37,903 nucleotides of DNA, taken from the NCBI GenBank assembly GCA_026388335.1, contig JAPLJZ010000048.1:1-37903 (forward strand). Direction: 5' to 3'. The stretch comes from Deltaproteobacteria bacterium. GTDB lineage: Bacteria > Desulfobacterota > Syntrophia > Syntrophales > UBA8958. The notes under the pieces are model-generated. The model made no database searches and was not told where the DNA came from. It saw only the letters and a list, made by a program, of their open reading frames with translations. Position 1 is the first letter of the stretch. Each line of letters opens with the position of its first letter. Shown one piece after another: positions 6,952 to 29,499 of this stretch. Both the position numbers and the translations under genes were made by a program.

Positions 6952-8412
6952 ATGTTGCATAAAGATCTCGAACGGATTTTTCATCCCCGCCGCGTCGCTG
7001 TCGCCGGTGTATCGACGGATGGTTTCGGCTTCGGACGGGGAATTTTTCTTTCGCTTTTATCCATGGGTTTTGAGGGAGAGCTTATCCCCGTCAATCCCCG
7101 GGGAGGTGAAATACTGGGGAGAAAGTTATATCGAAGCATCGATGAAATCCCCGGAAACATAGATTTTGCCGTTATTGCCGTGGCAGCATCACAGACGCCG
7201 GAAACCCTCGAAAAATGCCGGAGAAAGGGGGCTCTGGGGGCCGAAATCATTTCCTCCGGTTTTCGGGAGTTAGGAACGCCGGATGGCGTCGCCCTGGAAG
7301 ACGAGATTCGCACCATCGCCCGCAGGGGTATTCGGGTCATCGGTCCTAATTGTTTCGGTATTTATTGCCCCCGCAGCGGGCTCACCATGCTTCCCGGACC
7401 GGATCTATCCAGAGAGAGCGGTCCCGTCGCGTTTATTTCCCAAAGCGGAGGCATGTCTATAGATTTTGCCTTCATGGGTCCCTGGACAGGCGTCCACTTC
7501 AGCAAGATGGTCAGTTTTGGCAATGGCGCCGACCTTCGGGAGACGGAGCTGCTGGAGTATTTCAAAGACGATGACGAAACCGGCATTGTATCAATGTATG
7601 TGGAGGGGGTAGAAGACGGTGAGCGATTTATCAGGGCCCTTCGGGAAACATCTGCGGTCAAACCTGTCGTCGTTTACAAAGGCGGGCTGTCGGAAGCCGG
7701 GCAACGGGCGGTAACAAGCCATACCGCCTCTCTGGGAGGAAGCCGGGTTATCTGGGAAGCAGCCCTCCGCCAGGCGGGGGCGACTCAGGTCCAAAGCCTC
7801 GAAGAAATGGCTCAGACCTGCCTCGCTTTTTCCCTGCTGCCCCCCCGGATTTACCGGGGAATCACCGTTGCCGGCGGGGGCGGCGCCCTGGGTGTTGCTG
7901 CCTGCGACATGGCTGAAGCTTACGGTCTGTCCCTTCCCCATCTGGAGGGAGATGTTTATGAGGCCGTCTTATCCTGTTTGCCTAAACCCGGCTCCAGCGC
8001 CGCCAATCCCATCGACATCGCTAATCCCTATGTTCCCCCGCGCATGATCCGGGAGGCATTGATCCAGGCGGCAAAAGATGAGCGAGTGGATATCCAGATC
8101 CAGGCGCCCCTGCTGTATCATTTCAAGGCCCTGAGCACGCTGATGGGCATGAAGTCCTTTCAGGAAATGACCCCTTATCTCGAAATGGCCGCAGCCGCCA
8201 GAGAAGTTACTGATATCACTGGCAAACCCGTGGTGGTTGTCCTTCCCAATCCGAGAAGAGGGGAAAAGGATATGGATGTGGAAGAACTGCTGCGACGGGC
8301 AAGAAGGGCCTTTTTAGAAAGGGGAATTCCTGTTTTTGATATGCTGTCAGACGCCATGCGGGCAATTCATCATGTATCTGCATATGCAGCCGCCCACAGA
8401 CGAGAGAATTAG
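6952..8412 (+). CDS. Acyl-CoA synthetase (ADP-forming) alpha-subunit-like protein
   Basis: The 486-residue protein has the ADP-forming acyl-CoA synthetase alpha layout. A CoA-binding Rossmann domain spans about residues 5-135 (RRVAVAGVS, PVNPRGGEILG), followed by two succinyl-CoA-ligase-like domains. FISQSGGMSIDF falls at 161-172 and the phosphohistidine loop TSHTASLGGS has His257, the residue phosphorylated in characterised enzymes. The ATP-grasp beta domain needed for ATP synthesis is not fused, and no beta gene lies next to it. It either pairs with a beta subunit elsewhere or has another role. The gene is directly upstream of, and co-directional with, a TRAP transporter across a 220-base gap, suggesting a shared carboxylate substrate. 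It is divergent from mdh. Substrate is unknown. Confidence 0.85.
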   Translation: MLHKDLERIFHPRRVAVAGVSTDGFGFGRGIFLSLLSMGFEGELIPVNPRGGEILGRKLYRSIDEIPGNIDFAVIAVAASQTPETLEKCRRKGALGAEIISSGFRELGTPDGVALEDEIRTIARRGIRVIGPNCFGIYCPRSGLTMLPGPDLSRESGPVAFISQSGGMSIDFAFMGPWTGVHFSKMVSFGNGADLRETELLEYFKDDDETGIVSMYVEGVEDGERFIRALRETSAVKPVVVYKGGLSEAGQRAVTSHTASLGGSRVIWEAALRQAGATQVQSLEEMAQTCLAFSLLPPRIYRGITVAGGGGALGVAACDMAEAYGLSLPHLEGDVYEAVLSCLPKPGSSAANPIDIANPYVPPRMIREALIQAAKDERVDIQIQAPLLYHFKALSTLMGMKSFQEMTPYLEMAAAAREVTDITGKPVVVVLPNPRRGEKDMDVEELLRRARRAFLERGIPVFDMLSDAMRAIHHVSAYAAAHRREN

Positions 8413-8632: not shown

Positions 8633-9643
8633 ATGTTGAAAAAAATAACATTCATACTGCCTGTTTTAATTTTGGCATTAATAATCGGCGGTTGCGGCGG
8701 AGGACAGGACAAGGCGGCCCCCAAGGGGGAAGGCAAGGTCGCCTTTAAACTAGCCTCGCTGACGGCGATGGATCACACCTATAACCAGGGAGCGGCCAGA
8801 TTTGCCGAACTGGTCAAGGAACGCAGCAAGGGCCGCATCGAGATCACCATTTATCCTAACGGGCAGCTTGGCAAGGGAGAAAGGGAGCTCCTGGAAGCAA
8901 TCCAGCAGGGGACCATCGACTTTTATGTCGGCTCCACCGGACCGGTCGGCGGTTTCAGTCCCTCCATCGGCATTCTGGACCTGCCGTTTCTCTTCCGTGA
9001 TTACGCCCATGTGGACAAGGTCCTCGACGGGCCCCTTGGCCGTCAGCTCCTCGATGACCTGGGCAAGGCCAACCTCAAGGGATTGGCCTTCTGGGAAAAC
9101 GGTTTCCGGAACCTCACCAACTCCAAGAAGGCCGTGAAAGCCCCTGCCGACGCCAAGGGCCTAAAGATCCGAACGATGGAAAACAAGATCCATCTCGCCG
9201 CCTGGAAGGCCGTCGGCGTCAACCCCGTCCCCATGGCCTACGGCGAGGTCTATGGCGCCTTGCAGCAGAAAACCATCGACGGCCAGGAAAATCCCATCGC
9301 CGTCATTTACACGTCCAAATTAAACGAGGTCCAGAAATACCTCTCCCTGACCCAGCATGTCTATTCCCCGGCCCTGATCGTCGTCAGCCCCAAGACCTGG
9401 CAGGCGCTCTCGAAAGAAGATCAGGACATGATGTTGAAGACGGCCCAGGAGGTCGCCCCCTACCAGCGCAAGCTCGGGCGGGAAAATGAGGAGAAACAGA
9501 TCGCCGAATTGGCCGCCAAGGGGATGACGGTGACCGGAAACATCAACAAGGGGGCCTGGTACAAGATCATGGAAGGGGCGATGGGGGAATTCATTCAGTC
9601 CTTCGGCAAGGACAAGGTGGAAGGGATCATCAATACCAAATAA
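8633..9643 (+). CDS. dctP: TRAP transporter solute-binding lipoprotein DctP
   Basis: This is the extracytoplasmic receptor of a tripartite ATP-independent periplasmic transporter, which usually takes up C4-dicarboxylates or other carboxylates. The 336-residue product has a hydrophobic N-terminus and a lipobox, IIGGC with Cys21, so it should be membrane-anchored. The DctP fold is seen in FKLASLTAMDHTYNQGA, IEITIYPNGQLG and the conserved MAYGEVYGALQQKTIDGQEN region around residues 199-218. An AGGTAGGAG ribosome site precedes the ATG. Its TAA overlaps the dctQ ATG by one base, so the two are coupled. Substrate cannot be read from sequence; the acyl-CoA synthetase alpha gene upstream favours a monocarboxylate or dicarboxylate that is then CoA-activated. 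Confidence 0.93.
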   Translation: MLKKITFILPVLILALIIGGCGGGQDKAAPKGEGKVAFKLASLTAMDHTYNQGAARFAELVKERSKGRIEITIYPNGQLGKGERELLEAIQQGTIDFYVGSTGPVGGFSPSIGILDLPFLFRDYAHVDKVLDGPLGRQLLDDLGKANLKGLAFWENGFRNLTNSKKAVKAPADAKGLKIRTMENKIHLAAWKAVGVNPVPMAYGEVYGALQQKTIDGQENPIAVIYTSKLNEVQKYLSLTQHVYSPALIVVSPKTWQALSKEDQDMMLKTAQEVAPYQRKLGRENEEKQIAELAAKGMTVTGNINKGAWYKIMEGAMGEFIQSFGKDKVEGIINTK

Positions 9644-24037: not shown

Positions 24038-25897
24038 TTATATCACCTGCTTTACCCCGAATTCGCAGGACAGAACAAAAAAGTCGTCATCAAGGGCGGT
24101 CTTGACGGCGTAGGGAAGTTTCTTGAACAGACGGATCATGGCGGCATTACGATGCGAGGTATAGGCCGCCATGCCGGAAAAACCGTTTCCCATGGCCGCT
24201 TGTGCAAGCTTGGTCAGGATGACGTGGGCAATCCCCTTGCCCTGCCAGTCTTTGGAGACGGAAAAGGCGACTTCCACCCGGTTCTGGGCCGGTTCGAGGT
24301 TATATTCGCCCACGGCGATCACCCTTTCCAGCCCCCCTTCCCCCGTGGCAGCGACAATGGTCATGTTCTTGATATAGTCCACCTGATACATGTCCGCCAG
24401 TTGTTCCTGATAAAAGGTAGAGCGCAACTGGAAGAACCTTGTCGCCACATCCTTGTCGTCCATGGTGTAGAAGTGTTCCTGGATGGGGCGGATATCGGTC
24501 GGTTTGACGGGACGGAAGGTAACCCGGACGCCGCCGTAATCCCGGATTTCTTCCAGCCAGACGGGATAGACGCCGAAAAGGGATTCGTTCAGGGTGCGCT
24601 CCGGGCTGATCAATCCCAACTCCCCGGCCTGCCGGAAGAGATCTTCCCGAAAGGCGGGGTGGGCGATGCTGATCAGGGCCATGGCCCGCTCCTGGAGACT
24701 TTTCCCGAAGAGATTGACCATGCCGTATTCCGTGATGACATACTGAATATAGCTTTTCGATATGAACACGGCCCCGCAGTCCAGTTCGGGGACGATGTTG
24801 CTCTTCTTGCCATCCGACGTCGCGGCGGACAGGACGATCATTGATTTTCCCTCCGGATTGGCCAGGGCGCCGATGACAAAATCGGCCATGCCGCTAACCC
24901 CGGAGAAATAATTCTCGGGCAGGGCGTCGGCGGCAATCTGTCCTGTCAGGTCTATCGCCGTGGCGGCATTTACGGAGGTCATCCGTTCCTGTTGGGCAAT
25001 AATGATGGGGTTATTTACATAGTCGGCCGGATGAAATTCAATGGCGGGATGGTTATGGAGGAATCGGTACAATTCCTCTCCGCCGATGGCCGACTCCGCC
25101 ACCAGCTTGCCCTCGTGGCTGCTCTTATAGCGGTTCGTGATCACTCCTTCCGTCATGAGGTGCATGAATCCGTCCGTCATGAACTGGGTATGAACTCCCA
25201 GGTCGCGCTTATCCTTTAAGGCTCTGAGAATAGGGCCGGTATATTCACTCAGTCCCACATGGATCGTGGCGCCGTCCTCAATCAGGCAGGCCACCAGTTC
25301 GGCAATCTTCCGGGCCGCCTCCGTTTCCGGATGCTCCTGAACCGCCGGCAGCGGTGCGTCCCATTCCACAAATATATTGATGTCCCGGACATGGAGGAAG
25401 CTGTTTCCGTTGATACGTGGCATCTGCGGGTTAACCTGGGCGATTACGAGATCCGCCGCCTGGGCTGCCGCTCTCGTAATATCTACGGATACCCCCAGGC
25501 TCATCCACCCGTATTCATCGGGCGGGCTGACCTGAATGAGGGCGCAGTTGATGGGCAACTTCCGGGAACGAAAAAGCCGGGGGATGGAAGAAAAACCCAT
25601 CGGGGTGAGAAAACGGCGGATGCCTTGGAGCTGTTCCGTCCGTCCCGACCCTTGATAGATGCTCCGGAAGGAAAAGATATGCTCCAACTCCTGCCGATGC
25701 TTCGTCAAATCAATGGTGGCCTCCATAGAGAGGAGGCGGAGAATCTCCAGGTCGGAGAAACGGTCGCGGTTCTTAATGAGTGCGTCCACAAGATGGCGGG
25801 GAGATCCGCAGGTGGAGCTAATGAATACCCGCTGTCCGGAATGGATCATGGCAATGGCTTCCTCTGCCGTCCTTAATTTTTGCCGGTATTCTTGCAT
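24038..25897 (-). CDS. Acetyl-CoA hydrolase/CoA-transferase family protein fused to GNAT acetyltransferase
   Basis: The 619-residue protein has two parts. Residues 1-450 follow the 4-hydroxybutyrate CoA-transferase/acetyl-CoA hydrolase fold (AEEAIAMIHSGQRVFISSTC near the start, LGVHTQFMTDGFMHL at 233-247, YFSGVSGMADFVIGA at 330-344). Residues about 458-605 are a GNAT domain with the acetyl-CoA loop DWQGKGIAHVI. In characterised members the catalytic Glu sits in H-T/S-E; here position 238 is Gln (codon CAG). The G-G-Q-x-D-F motif is also changed to SGMADF. Standard glutamyl-CoA catalysis is thus doubtful. The fusion could link acyl-CoA sensing or hydrolysis to protein or metabolite acetylation. 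It is divergent from the MFS/CoA-transferase unit. Confidence 0.87.
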   Translation of the reverse strand: MQEYRQKLRTAEEAIAMIHSGQRVFISSTCGSPRHLVDALIKNRDRFSDLEILRLLSMEATIDLTKHRQELEHIFSFRSIYQGSGRTEQLQGIRRFLTPMGFSSIPRLFRSRKLPINCALIQVSPPDEYGWMSLGVSVDITRAAAQAADLVIAQVNPQMPRINGNSFLHVRDINIFVEWDAPLPAVQEHPETEAARKIAELVACLIEDGATIHVGLSEYTGPILRALKDKRDLGVHTQFMTDGFMHLMTEGVITNRYKSSHEGKLVAESAIGGEELYRFLHNHPAIEFHPADYVNNPIIIAQQERMTSVNAATAIDLTGQIAADALPENYFSGVSGMADFVIGALANPEGKSMIVLSAATSDGKKSNIVPELDCGAVFISKSYIQYVITEYGMVNLFGKSLQERAMALISIAHPAFREDLFRQAGELGLISPERTLNESLFGVYPVWLEEIRDYGGVRVTFRPVKPTDIRPIQEHFYTMDDKDVATRFFQLRSTFYQEQLADMYQVDYIKNMTIVAATGEGGLERVIAVGEYNLEPAQNRVEVAFSVSKDWQGKGIAHVILTKLAQAAMGNGFSGMAAYTSHRNAAMIRLFKKLPYAVKTALDDDFFVLSCEFGVKQVI

Positions 25898-26016: not shown

Positions 26017-27456
26017 ATGGTTGATTATGCGCTGACTGATAAAAAGAGCCAGTTCGCCCTCATCGCCCTGGCCGGATCGCTTGCGGGCGTGGCCAATCTG
26101 GATTATTCCCTGGTGAATATCTCCATCATTCCCATTTCAAAACACTTTGACGTTTCCGCATCTTTAAGCGACTGGGTTCTGATCATCCTCGGCCTCATTT
26201 CCGTGGCCACCCCCGTGGGATTCGGGAAACTGGGCGATCTCAAGGGCTATCGGAACGTTTTGAATATCGGCCTGATTATTTACGCAACCGGAAACGTCAT
26301 GTGCGCCTTCGCCCCCAGTATCCAGGCGCTGATTGCCTTTCACACCCTGAAATCCGTAGGCTACGCCATGACTCTGCCCATGTCCCTAGCCATTACGACG
26401 GTTTTTCTCCCGGGCCACATGATCGGTCTGGCCTTGGGCGTGGTCGCCGCTATGGCGGCTCTTGGTTTCGCCCTGGGACTTGCCGTCGGCGGTTACGTCG
26501 CCGGGGTCTTCGGCTGGCAATACAATTTCCTCGTTTCCGTCCCTATTCTGGCTGCGGGACTCCTTGCCTCCTTTCTCATCGTACCGGCCAGTCAGGCAGA
26601 AGCGCCCGACGCCCGTTTTGATCTGCCCGGCGCCGTCTGGCTCTTCATGGCCCTGTTTCCCATGATCTTTGCGCTGAATTCCGGTGCCAAAGCGGGATGG
26701 AGTAATCCGATCATCCTGACAGCCCTTGTTATTTCCGCCGTCGGGTTCGTTTTGTTTTTCCGCCAGGAACAGCGCATATCTTATCCCCTTGTAGACTTGA
26801 TCCTTTTTAAGAAAAGGAATTTTTCCTATTCTATCGCAGCGGTGACCCTGGTTTACTTTCTCATGGGCGGGGTGATGTTCCTCTTTCCCTTTTATCTCCT
26901 CCTCGTTCGCCACCTCGATATGTCTCAGGCCGGGCTGGTCATTATGATCTTCCCGATCACGGCGGCCGTCGTCGCCCCTTTCGCCGGCAGCCTGGCCGAC
27001 CGTCTCGGCTCGCACCTGCTCTGTACGGCAGGCATGTTGATCACTGCCGCCGGCAATATCCTTGTTGCCCTTCTGAGTCCGGATTCCGGCCTTGCCCATG
27101 TCATTGCCGCCCTGTGCCTGATGGGGGTCGGCATCGGCCTGTTCTTTGCGCCCAACAATAAACTGATCATGACGCTTACCCAGAAGGAGAAACAGGGCAT
27201 GGCTTCCGGCATCTACCGGATGACGACAAACGCCGGATCAGTCCTGGGCATCGTTTTTTTTGTGCTCATTGTCCAGCAGGTCATCAGCATCGATTGCAGT
27301 CGGTGGCACATTGCCCCGCCTGCTTACAAGCTGCACCCGGAGGTCCTCATGCACGGTTTTCAGGTGGTTTTCATTATCGGAGCGGCATTGATGCTGCTGA
27401 ACGCCTTTTTCGCATTTCAGGCCAAAGACGTTATAGAACCGGCCCCTGCCCAATGA
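26017..27456 (+). CDS. MFS transporter (DHA2-like, about 14 transmembrane segments)
   Basis: The 479-residue membrane protein has the major facilitator A motif GKLGDLKGYRNVLNIG between helices 2 and 3 and the YDYSLVNISIIP-like first helix (NLDYSLVNISIIPIS) of the DHA2 drug:proton family. About 14 hydrophobic segments are visible. A second A-like motif, GSLADRLGSHLL, occurs after the central loop. There is no clear ribosome site before the ATG at 26017, so the start is uncertain. The CoA-transferase gene starts 40 bases downstream on the same strand. That context suggests export or uptake of an organic acid rather than drugs, but substrate is not encoded in any visible motif. Confidence 0.9.
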   Translation: MVDYALTDKKSQFALIALAGSLAGVANLDYSLVNISIIPISKHFDVSASLSDWVLIILGLISVATPVGFGKLGDLKGYRNVLNIGLIIYATGNVMCAFAPSIQALIAFHTLKSVGYAMTLPMSLAITTVFLPGHMIGLALGVVAAMAALGFALGLAVGGYVAGVFGWQYNFLVSVPILAAGLLASFLIVPASQAEAPDARFDLPGAVWLFMALFPMIFALNSGAKAGWSNPIILTALVISAVGFVLFFRQEQRISYPLVDLILFKKRNFSYSIAAVTLVYFLMGGVMFLFPFYLLLVRHLDMSQAGLVIMIFPITAAVVAPFAGSLADRLGSHLLCTAGMLITAAGNILVALLSPDSGLAHVIAALCLMGVGIGLFFAPNNKLIMTLTQKEKQGMASGIYRMTTNAGSVLGIVFFVLIVQQVISIDCSRWHIAPPAYKLHPEVLMHGFQVVFIIGAALMLLNAFFAFQAKDVIEPAPAQ

Positions 27457-27495
27457 GAACAAAGGTTTTTATCATTTATGGAGGTACTTAAATAG

Positions 27496-29499
27496 ATGGA
27501 AAATGCTACACACCCAATGCTGGCGCTTCAGGAAGCCATCAAACAGCGGAAGGGTAAGATCGTCTCCTCCAATGAGGCGGTCCGGATTATCCTAAACGGC
27601 GATACTATCGCCTTCAGCGGCTTTCTCGGCGCCGTCTTTGCCGAAGAGATCGCCCGCAAAATCGAGGAATCTTATCTTAAATGTGGAAATCCGAGGGATT
27701 TAACCCTCGTCTATGCTGCGGGAATCGGCGACGGCAAGGAAAAGGGCGTCAACATCCTGGCCCGCGAAGGGCTGCTGAAAAAGGTCGTCTGCGGTCATGT
27801 CGGTCTGGCCCCGAAGCTCCAGAAGCTCATCCGGGAAAATAAGATTCTGGCCTATAACCTTCCCCAGGGGGTGATCAACCACCTCACCCGGGACATCGCT
27901 GCCCACAAACCGGGAACGCTTTCTTTCGTCGGGTTGGGAACCTTTATCGATCCCCGTCTGGACGGGGGAAAACTCAACGACCTGACCAAAACGGAGGGGG
28001 AAGATCATGTCCAGCTTATAACCGTGGGGGGGAAGGAATGCCTGTTCTACAAGTCCTTTCCCATTAACGTGGCCGTGATCCGGGGGACGACGGCCGATCC
28101 CGACGGCAACATCACCATGGAAAAGGAGGCCCTGACCCTGGAGACCCTCTCCTTGGCCATGGCCGCCAAGAATTCCGGGGGCTTTGTCATCGCCCAGGTG
28201 GAACGGATCGCCGACCGGGGAACCCTCAACGCCAGGCAGGTGAAGATACCGGGGATCTTCGTGGACTGCATCGTCGTCGCCAGGCCCGAATATCACTGGC
28301 AGACCAACATCGAGGTCTATAATCCCGCCTACAGCAGCGAAATACGTATCCCCATGCAGTCCATTGCCCCCATGGAAATGAGCGAGAGGAAAATCATCGC
28401 CCGCCGCGCCGCCTTTGAGCTTCGTCCCAACAGCGTCGTGAACCTCGGCATCGGCATGCCCGAGGGGGTCGCCCAGGTAGCCAACGAAGAGAAGATCATC
28501 GAATATTTGACCCTGACCGCCGAGCCGGGCGTGATCGGCGGGATGCCCAACAGCGGTCCCAACTTCGGCACCGGCGTGAACCTCGACGCCCTCATCGACC
28601 AACCTTACCAGTTCGATTTTTATGACGGCGGCGGCCTGGATATGGCATTTCTCGGCATGGCTCAGGCGGACCGGGAGGGGAACATCAACGTCAGCCGCTA
28701 CGGCCCCCGCTTCGTAGGCCCCGGCGGCTTCATCGACATCAGCCAGAACTCTAAAAAAGTAATATTTACCGGGACATTTACGGCCGGGGGGCTTAATGTC
28801 GGCGTCGAGGATGGCAAGCTACGCATCCTCAGCGAAGGAAAGGAACGGAAATTTATCCAGGCGGTAGAGCAGAAAACGTACAGCGGCGCCTACGGGGCAA
28901 AGAGCGGCCGGCCAGTCTTGTATGTAACGGAACGATGCGTCTTTCGCCTCGGCGCGGAAGGCCTGGAACTCATCGAAATCGCCCCTGGAATGGACCTGGA
29001 GAAAGACGTCCTCGCCCTGATGGACTTCAAGCCGGTGATGAAGCAGGAACCCTGCCTCATGGACGCCCGGATCTTCCGGCCCGAACCGATGAATCTGAAG
29101 GACGATCTCCTGTCGGTACCACTGGAGGAACGCTTTACCTACAATCCCGAAGAGAATATCTTTTTCGTCAATTTCGAGAACTTCTTTGTCCGTTCCCGGG
29201 GGGACATCGAAAAGATCAGGGACACCGTGGAAAAGATCCTCGTCCCCATCGGCAAAAAGGTCTTTACTATCGTTAATTACGACAATTTCAACATCCTGCC
29301 GGAGTTGGTGGACGAATACGCCGATATGGTCAAGTATGTCATGCGCTACTACGAGAAGACGACCCGTTACACGACGAGCACCTTCCTAAGGATGAAACTG
29401 GGCGACGAACTCCAGGAACGGGGGGTGGCACCCCATATCTGCGAAAGCAGAGGGGAGGCCAGGCGGAAATTATTCTTTGAGGAGGATAAAGATGATTAG
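27496..29499 (+). CDS. Type I acyl-CoA:carboxylate CoA-transferase with C-terminal extension
   Basis: The 667-residue protein fuses the alpha and beta halves of a type I CoA-transferase, as in propionate CoA-transferase and acetoacetate/3-ketoacid CoA-transferases. The alpha half has GDTIAFSGFLGAVFAEEIA; the beta half has VVNLGIGMPEGVAQVA and the catalytic Glu343 in TAEPGVIGG, the E-x-G-x-x-G signature. Relatives usually end near residue 520; here about 135 more residues follow (VPLEERFTYNPEENIFFVNF onward), an unidentified domain with a highly Tyr/Asn-rich core. It exchanges CoA between acyl-CoA and free acids, fitting the adjacent MFS transporter. GGAGGT lies 10 bases before the ATG. Exact substrate unknown. 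Confidence 0.92.
   Translation: MENATHPMLALQEAIKQRKGKIVSSNEAVRIILNGDTIAFSGFLGAVFAEEIARKIEESYLKCGNPRDLTLVYAAGIGDGKEKGVNILAREGLLKKVVCGHVGLAPKLQKLIRENKILAYNLPQGVINHLTRDIAAHKPGTLSFVGLGTFIDPRLDGGKLNDLTKTEGEDHVQLITVGGKECLFYKSFPINVAVIRGTTADPDGNITMEKEALTLETLSLAMAAKNSGGFVIAQVERIADRGTLNARQVKIPGIFVDCIVVARPEYHWQTNIEVYNPAYSSEIRIPMQSIAPMEMSERKIIARRAAFELRPNSVVNLGIGMPEGVAQVANEEKIIEYLTLTAEPGVIGGMPNSGPNFGTGVNLDALIDQPYQFDFYDGGGLDMAFLGMAQADREGNINVSRYGPRFVGPGGFIDISQNSKKVIFTGTFTAGGLNVGVEDGKLRILSEGKERKFIQAVEQKTYSGAYGAKSGRPVLYVTERCVFRLGAEGLELIEIAPGMDLEKDVLALMDFKPVMKQEPCLMDARIFRPEPMNLKDDLLSVPLEERFTYNPEENIFFVNFENFFVRSRGDIEKIRDTVEKILVPIGKKVFTIVNYDNFNILPELVDEYADMVKYVMRYYEKTTRYTTSTFLRMKLGDELQERGVAPHICESRGEARRKLFFEEDKDD

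Follow-up and report, generated by a model that had tools for sequence, protein, structure and literature searches.

This locus raised the question of what a CoA-transferase domain does when it lacks its catalytic glutamate and is fused to a GNAT acetyltransferase. The window, by which we mean the whole stretch of DNA that was analysed (37,903 nucleotides, contig JAPLJZ010000048.1 of assembly GCA_026388335.1), carried such a fusion as an intact open reading frame of 619 aa on the minus strand, at 24038..25897 with the stop codon included and at 24041-25897 without it. The CoA-transferase-like domain comprised residues 1-430 (24608..25897, minus strand; Pfam PF02550 and PF13336) and the Pat-type GNAT domain residues ~457-616 (24050..24529, minus strand; PF13302 and PF00583). 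The Pfam matches themselves, AcetylCoA_hydro, AcetylCoA_hyd_C and GNAT, were all above their cut-offs and placed the N- and C-terminal CoA-transferase domains at residues 2-172 and 272-424 and the GNAT at 458-594. The NCBIfam model for butyryl-CoA:acetate CoA-transferase (TIGR03948) gave 239.6 bits, below its cut-off of 674.8. The gene may already have an automatic database name of the kind 'acetyl-CoA hydrolase/transferase ... GNAT'.

Codons 236-238 were CAT ACC CAG, encoding H-T-Q. In phmmer alignments, Q238 fell on the Glu of the HTE or HSE motif in five solved relatives (9vag, 3eh7, 2oas, 3d3u, and 3gk7), which bore out the first-pass annotation that HTQ stood in place of the family's H-T/S-E. 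The same column corresponded to Glu249 of RipA, the proposed catalytic glutamate of that enzyme (PMC3180442), and the 4n8l chain with the E249D change read HTD there. Namely, the query had Gln at the position of the catalytic glutamate of class I CoA-transferases of the 4-hydroxybutyrate type. Codon 238 (25184..25186, minus strand) was CAG in the query and in L009, L010, L011, L019, and L021, and GAG in L012 and L014, in agreement with the earlier remark that it was one base away from GAG. The GGQ/GGx oxyanion-loop motif, a name that we took over from the first-pass annotation and the conservation of which was counted in this analysis, was also changed: residues 335-340 were SGMADF, with SGM at 335-337 (24887..24895, minus strand). 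The claim that GGQ was altered had to be refined here, since the middle glycine, G336, was retained and only the first G and the Q were replaced. G336 was likewise retained in 21 of the 23 members of the query's clade, described below as clade B. In AarC, the contact that the protein itself makes to the external oxyanion hole is through the backbone amide of Gly388 (PMC4876117). Because this contact is a backbone amide, the change at 335-337 need not by itself abolish the oxyanion hole if AarC is a fair guide.

An AlphaFold2 model of the protein, made from a 64-row alignment, had a mean pLDDT of 84.1, with values below 50 at residues 59-66, 82-91, and 327-333. It was compared with known structures by a second look at Foldseek matches, among the best 50 entries, which mostly matched the CoA-transferase domain. 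Residues ~1-431 had the CoA-transferase fold, with matches to 3eh7 (Z 51.5, rmsd 1.5, 393 aligned residues), 2oas (Z 50.7), and 3gk7 (Z 49.2). The whole fold was common to these 4-hydroxybutyrate CoA-transferases and to RipA (3qli), with Z of 48.8-51.5 and 34-38% identity, and the top sequence match of the query, 9vag, was also a 4-hydroxybutyrate CoA-transferase. Unlike these enzymes, the query had Gln for the catalytic Glu, SGM for GGQ, a clade-specific signature in its N-domain, and an attached GNAT. S. lividans Pat supplied a GNAT match for residues 444-613 of the model (4u5y, Z 23.6), and E. coli PatZ (9it0, Z 21.1) and Rv0998 (4avc, Z 18.7) matched the C-terminal part. By sequence, 9it0 and 9isq were the top GNAT matches (phmmer; E 1.1e-13 for 9it0), so that structure and sequence both placed a Pat-type GNAT domain in the window protein.

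The Gln was shared by orthologues in other metagenome-assembled genomes (MAGs), namely L009 (95% identity), L010 (93%), and the partial L026. The first tree was built on 126 rows and 417 columns with the trait columns removed; the rows were taken from 128 aligned ones (ORFs shorter than 300 aa not being taken) by dropping the fragments L013 and L030, which had no position 238. This tree contained 55 fusions without Glu at position 238 (group A, with P, F, L, V, Y, T, I or H), 50 Glu-type fusions (group D, 49 with E and one with S), three fusions with D or G, five unfused rows that all had Glu, and 13 rows in the query's clade. At least four changes between Glu and no Glu were needed on it, and three of them were forced by starred branches. 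Ten further members of the query's clade came from 99 genomes sampled across the phylum, among which 53 had a match at E up to 1e-60. The resulting clade B (n=23) was supported at 100/100 in a careful tree of 45 rows and had Q in 14, L in 5, P in 2, and E in 2 members at position 238; GGQ was found in 0/23. Each of the four deepest branches of clade B contained Q238, while the five L, the two P, and the two E each fell within one subclade. The nested position of the Glu238 pair suggests that CAG reverted to GAG there, although this order is one that we infer. Outside clade B, Q238 was found in L170, L230, and L231; the Gln238 state is mainly one clade's feature.

Since Q238 was seen in orthologues from other MAGs and in 14/23 clade members, it was no error and was not confined to this genome. 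A sequencing error or a pseudogene was rejected as an explanation on the grounds that the ORF was intact in other MAGs, CAG was kept, and dN/dS was low. Random decay was unlikely in view of the Gln in all four deepest branches. Two irregularities were observed among the relatives. The fusion L011:726-2636, from the same genus (UBA8958), was 92% identical to the query in its GNAT half and 51% in its CoA-transferase half, and shared synteny with the window on the downstream side only; this mosaic was due either to domain exchange between paralogues or to an assembly join. In the assemblies of two relatives, contig ends or a frame break fell inside the CoA-transferase half of this gene (L026, L037, and L025), perhaps from strain variants or near-identical copies.

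The fusion to GNAT did not by itself account for the loss of Glu. Among 217 deduplicated rows, Glu238 was retained in 73/168 GNAT-fused rows versus 41/47 rows classed as unfused and missing in 95/168 versus 6/47, fractions that are not population rates because similarity to the query decided which rows were taken. The corresponding Fisher p was 4.7e-8, a value that ignores the kinship of the rows. L162, which is cut by a contig end and has fused kin, was counted as unfused, and L189 resembled the Glu-less group with no GNAT detected. The first-pass annotation had proposed an alignment of GNAT-fused homologues at position 238; this alignment found Glu to be often missing, but fusion alone was no predictor of its absence. 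Accordingly, the idea that fused means inactive was rejected, as many of the fused rows retained Glu and two paralogues from the same genome, L002 and L003, retained both the E and GGQ. Moreover, GG was present at 335-336 in 70/71 Glu-type fused rows outside clade B. A fused CoA-transferase domain can, judged by its residues, look like an ordinary enzyme, which counts against the regulator reading given below. Other substitutions were found at the catalytic position as well. Eight fused rows outside clade B had Asp there (L022, L023, L153, L154, L160, L220, L225, and L227) and may be acyl-CoA hydrolases by analogy with CtfAB E46D. The unfused relatives L190, L217, L218, and L219 had Gly (HSG) and kept GG.

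Both halves of the protein are under purifying selection: dN/dS was ~0.06-0.11 for the CoA-transferase domain and ~0.05-0.09 for the GNAT (NG86 and YN00; three pairs among the window, L009, and L010). Clade B also had its own signature in the CoA-transferase domain, with E59, R78, Y81, and F96 in 23/23 members and R95 in 22/23. In the Glu-type group, the same positions were mostly G, N, F, D, and A, and position 59 was Gly in 49/50 rows of the Glu238-type fusion group. When L008 was used to bridge the RipA and query alignments, E59 (25721..25723, minus strand) corresponded to Glu61 and Y81 to Phe85 of RipA, both residues of the acyl pocket; the placement of E59 is a lead, since the alignment was gapped near it and the model was poor at 59-66. 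The first-pass annotation had named in advance a result that would speak against its reading, a conserved Glu at another place in the active site, and this was found in part. Glu59 was invariant in the clade and aligned with a pocket Glu, but it coexisted with Glu238 in the clade members L012 and L014, and RipA had both residues. This coexistence makes a role of Glu59 in ligand binding likelier than one as a replacement nucleophile.

Residues R462, R487, D507, Y508, G555, and N584 of the GNAT half showed little or no variation in groups A (55 rows), B (23 rows, with one or two gaps), and D (50 rows). Position 542 was E in 22/22 clade-B fusions and E or D in 70/71 Glu-type rows and 74/77 other rows (the 77 include two fragments that lack position 238). 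Glu542 (24272..24274, minus strand) aligned with a Glu that PatZ has in the corresponding GNAT strand; from the text of PMC8556138, and not by counting, we infer that this residue is E809. The GNAT acetyl-CoA-binding motif (Q-x-x-G-x-A, as given in PMC8556138) was QGKGIA at residues 552-557 (24227..24244, minus strand). The strict form [QRH]xxGx[GA] was matched by 14/22 clade-B fusions, the query included; among the other eight, seven ended in Ser and one was cut by a contig end. By these residues, the GNAT is the constant part across the fusion groups. Given that constancy, we lean towards a division of labour in which the GNAT provides the catalytic output and the CoA-transferase domain regulates it.

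The function that we consider somewhat better than an even bet is that of a Pat-like protein (lysine) acyltransferase in which the CoA-transferase domain has turned into an acyl-CoA-binding regulator of the GNAT. The N-terminal domain would have kept its fold, lost CoA-transfer catalysis, and probably kept acyl-CoA binding. The ligand of this domain would be an acyl-CoA, perhaps a specific one, since the clade has a pocket signature of its own; once occupied, the domain would switch the C-terminal GNAT. The GNAT would then acylate lysines of metabolic enzymes from acetyl- or acyl-CoA. What was computed here is the residue, the clade, both folds, the GNAT conservation, and the purifying selection. 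The E294A variant of AarC has no activity, yet CoA and a non-hydrolysable analogue of acetyl-CoA are still bound in its closed active site (PMC4876117), and in CtfAB the E46A and E46S variants had no activity while E46D became a hydrolase (PMC12400318). By analogy with these mutants, a domain without the carboxylate should no longer transfer CoA but should still bind its ligands; the replacements considered were Ala, Ser, and Asp, with no Glu-to-Gln among them. In type I/II Pat enzymes, the inactive acyl-CoA-synthetase domain binds acetyl-CoA and is thought to be a sensor (PMC8556138). The first-pass suggestion that the protein binds acyl-CoA as a sensor stands as the best-supported reading, somewhat favoured overall, but Glu loss does not go with the GNAT fusion as such. 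Loss of transferase activity, acyl-CoA binding, allostery, and lysine targets are predictions of this reading. We found no description of such a CoA-transferase/GNAT fusion in the literature searched, which excluded most subscription journals, and thus nothing direct supports the allostery.

Alternatively, the CoA-transferase domain might still hydrolyse or transfer acyl groups, using Glu59, water, or a Gln238 converted to Glu by deamidation or by attack of the CoA thiolate. A Glu-to-Gln mutant of glutaconate CoA-transferase reportedly regains activity. Glu59 was not only invariant in the clade but also aligned with RipA Glu61, which is modelled beside the thioester carbonyl, the Gln of the deepest branches would be a kept state rather than a random loss, and two members had Glu238 with a GAG codon, one base away from CAG. 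Asp for Glu yields a hydrolase in CtfAB (PMC12400318), and Asp was present in the eight fused rows mentioned above. However, 7/23 clade members had L or P at 238, residues from which no maturation can yield Glu; Glu59 stood alongside Glu238 in both members that have the latter, as in RipA; GGQ was lost throughout the clade; and the Ala and Ser mutants of relatives were inactive (PMC4876117, PMC12400318). We regard such residual catalysis as quite improbable. It is also unlikely, if slightly less so, that the domain is a mere structural or oligomerisation scaffold for the GNAT with no ligand sensing. The isolated GNAT of PatZ is inactive without its N-terminal domain (PMC8556138), and a fold kept without catalytic residues would suffice for such a role. 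On the other hand, the clade signature included E59 and Y81 at the positions of pocket residues of RipA, which suggests constraint by a ligand.

The acceptor of the GNAT might also be a small molecule, or something else other than protein lysines, as GNATs are diverse and the weaker sequence matches included spermidine N1-acetyltransferases (E 3e-4 to 5e-4). The top sequence matches and the GNAT rows among the best 50 structural matches were, in contrast, Pat-type protein acetyltransferases. Moreover, Glu-type relatives were often beside acyl-CoA synthetases and at least four fusions were beside HDAC-family genes, although none of these belonged to clade B. We hold this alternative to be the least probable of those considered, and the lysine acyltransferase gated by acyl-CoA remained our preferred reading.

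In this genome, 18 places matched the query, six of which were full or near-full GNAT fusions (the window gene, L002, L003, L005, L006, and L007). The genome also contained one SIR2, at least six HDAC-family matches, and a classical 870-aa acyl-CoA-synthetase/GNAT protein (L172), a setting that speaks for the Pat-like reading. By eye, and among the matches listed, at least four fusions were less than 1 kb away from an HDAC-family gene of the same orientation: G029:C28 and G045:C47, both of Glu type, and G000:C190 (L176) and G040:C61, both from the group of 55. At G029:C28 and G045:C47, an acyl-CoA synthetase domain came after these. A reversible-acylation system suits the wider family, in parts similar to the AcuA/AcuC pair of Bacillus (PMC13121692), but does not reach the query's clade. 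Namely, no deacylase or acyl-CoA synthetase was found beside the window gene or at eight other clade-B loci, in a scan that covered ten window neighbours and 20 neighbouring ORFs at the eight loci, several having no Pfam match. There was also no neighbour gene common to all of these loci. A carboxyl transferase gene of the acyl-CoA carboxylase type was near 4/5 loci of the Leu238 subclade (L016, L017, L018, and L020, with none near L015), and in L016 and L018 an acyl-CoA dehydrogenase lay beyond it. MTTB was near L012, and clostripain and a histidine-kinase-like/GNAT gene were beside L021. Divergent from the query gene, the window encoded an MFS transporter and a 667-aa CoA-transferase (26017-29499), the latter with a top match to the FadX model below its cut-off; this pair was conserved in L009 and L010, but most or all of it was absent from L025 and L026. 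Elsewhere in the window, a 486-aa acetate-CoA-ligase alpha-like protein (6952-8412, below cut-off) adjoined a TRAP transporter binding protein (8633-9643). Among plasmid records, 51 matched the query, none of them over more than 80% of its length.

The closest known parallel was Pat/PatZ (type I; E. coli PatZ and S. enterica Pat), where a large N-terminal domain derived from an acyl-CoA enzyme has lost its catalytic residue and precedes a C-terminal Pat-type GNAT. The N-terminal domain is an NDP-forming acyl-CoA synthetase there and a class I CoA-transferase here, and sensing and acetylation are only predicted for the window protein. In the window protein, a CoA-transferase domain would take the part that the acyl-CoA-synthetase domain plays in Pat. 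Type III GNATs (cAMP- or ACT-domain Pat, Rv0998) also have a small-molecule sensor domain ahead of a Pat-type GNAT, but one of another kind than a CoA-transferase. Within the same genome, L002 and L003 were built from the same two domains and were 40% and 36% identical to the query; unlike the query, they kept the catalytic Glu and the intact loop and adjoined NDP-forming acyl-CoA synthetase genes.

In syntrophs, many lysines bear acyl marks, and these follow the acyl-CoA intermediates that are metabolised, as reported for Syntrophomonas wolfei and cited for Syntrophus aciditrophicus (PMC9676460). Such marks can arise directly from reactive acyl-CoAs, and therefore no writer enzyme need exist (PMC9676460). 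The present family is a candidate enzymatic writer, with six GNAT-fused relatives in one genome and a Syntrophus sp. MAG (L009) as the nearest named relative. More speculatively, and we think it rather doubtful, the GNAT-fused CoA-transferases of these anaerobes might form an array of acyl-CoA receptors. The CoA-transferase domain of each paralogue, catalytic or not, would read a different acyl-CoA and its own GNAT would write the matching lysine acylation, so that metabolite-specific marks would be partly enzymatic and receptor-controlled; clade B, marked by Gln238 together with Glu59, would then represent a single receptor type whose ligand is fixed. Glu, Gln, Asp, Leu, and Pro all occur naturally at this catalytic position ahead of GNATs of one kind, and so the family offers a series for finding when an enzyme domain becomes a sensor.
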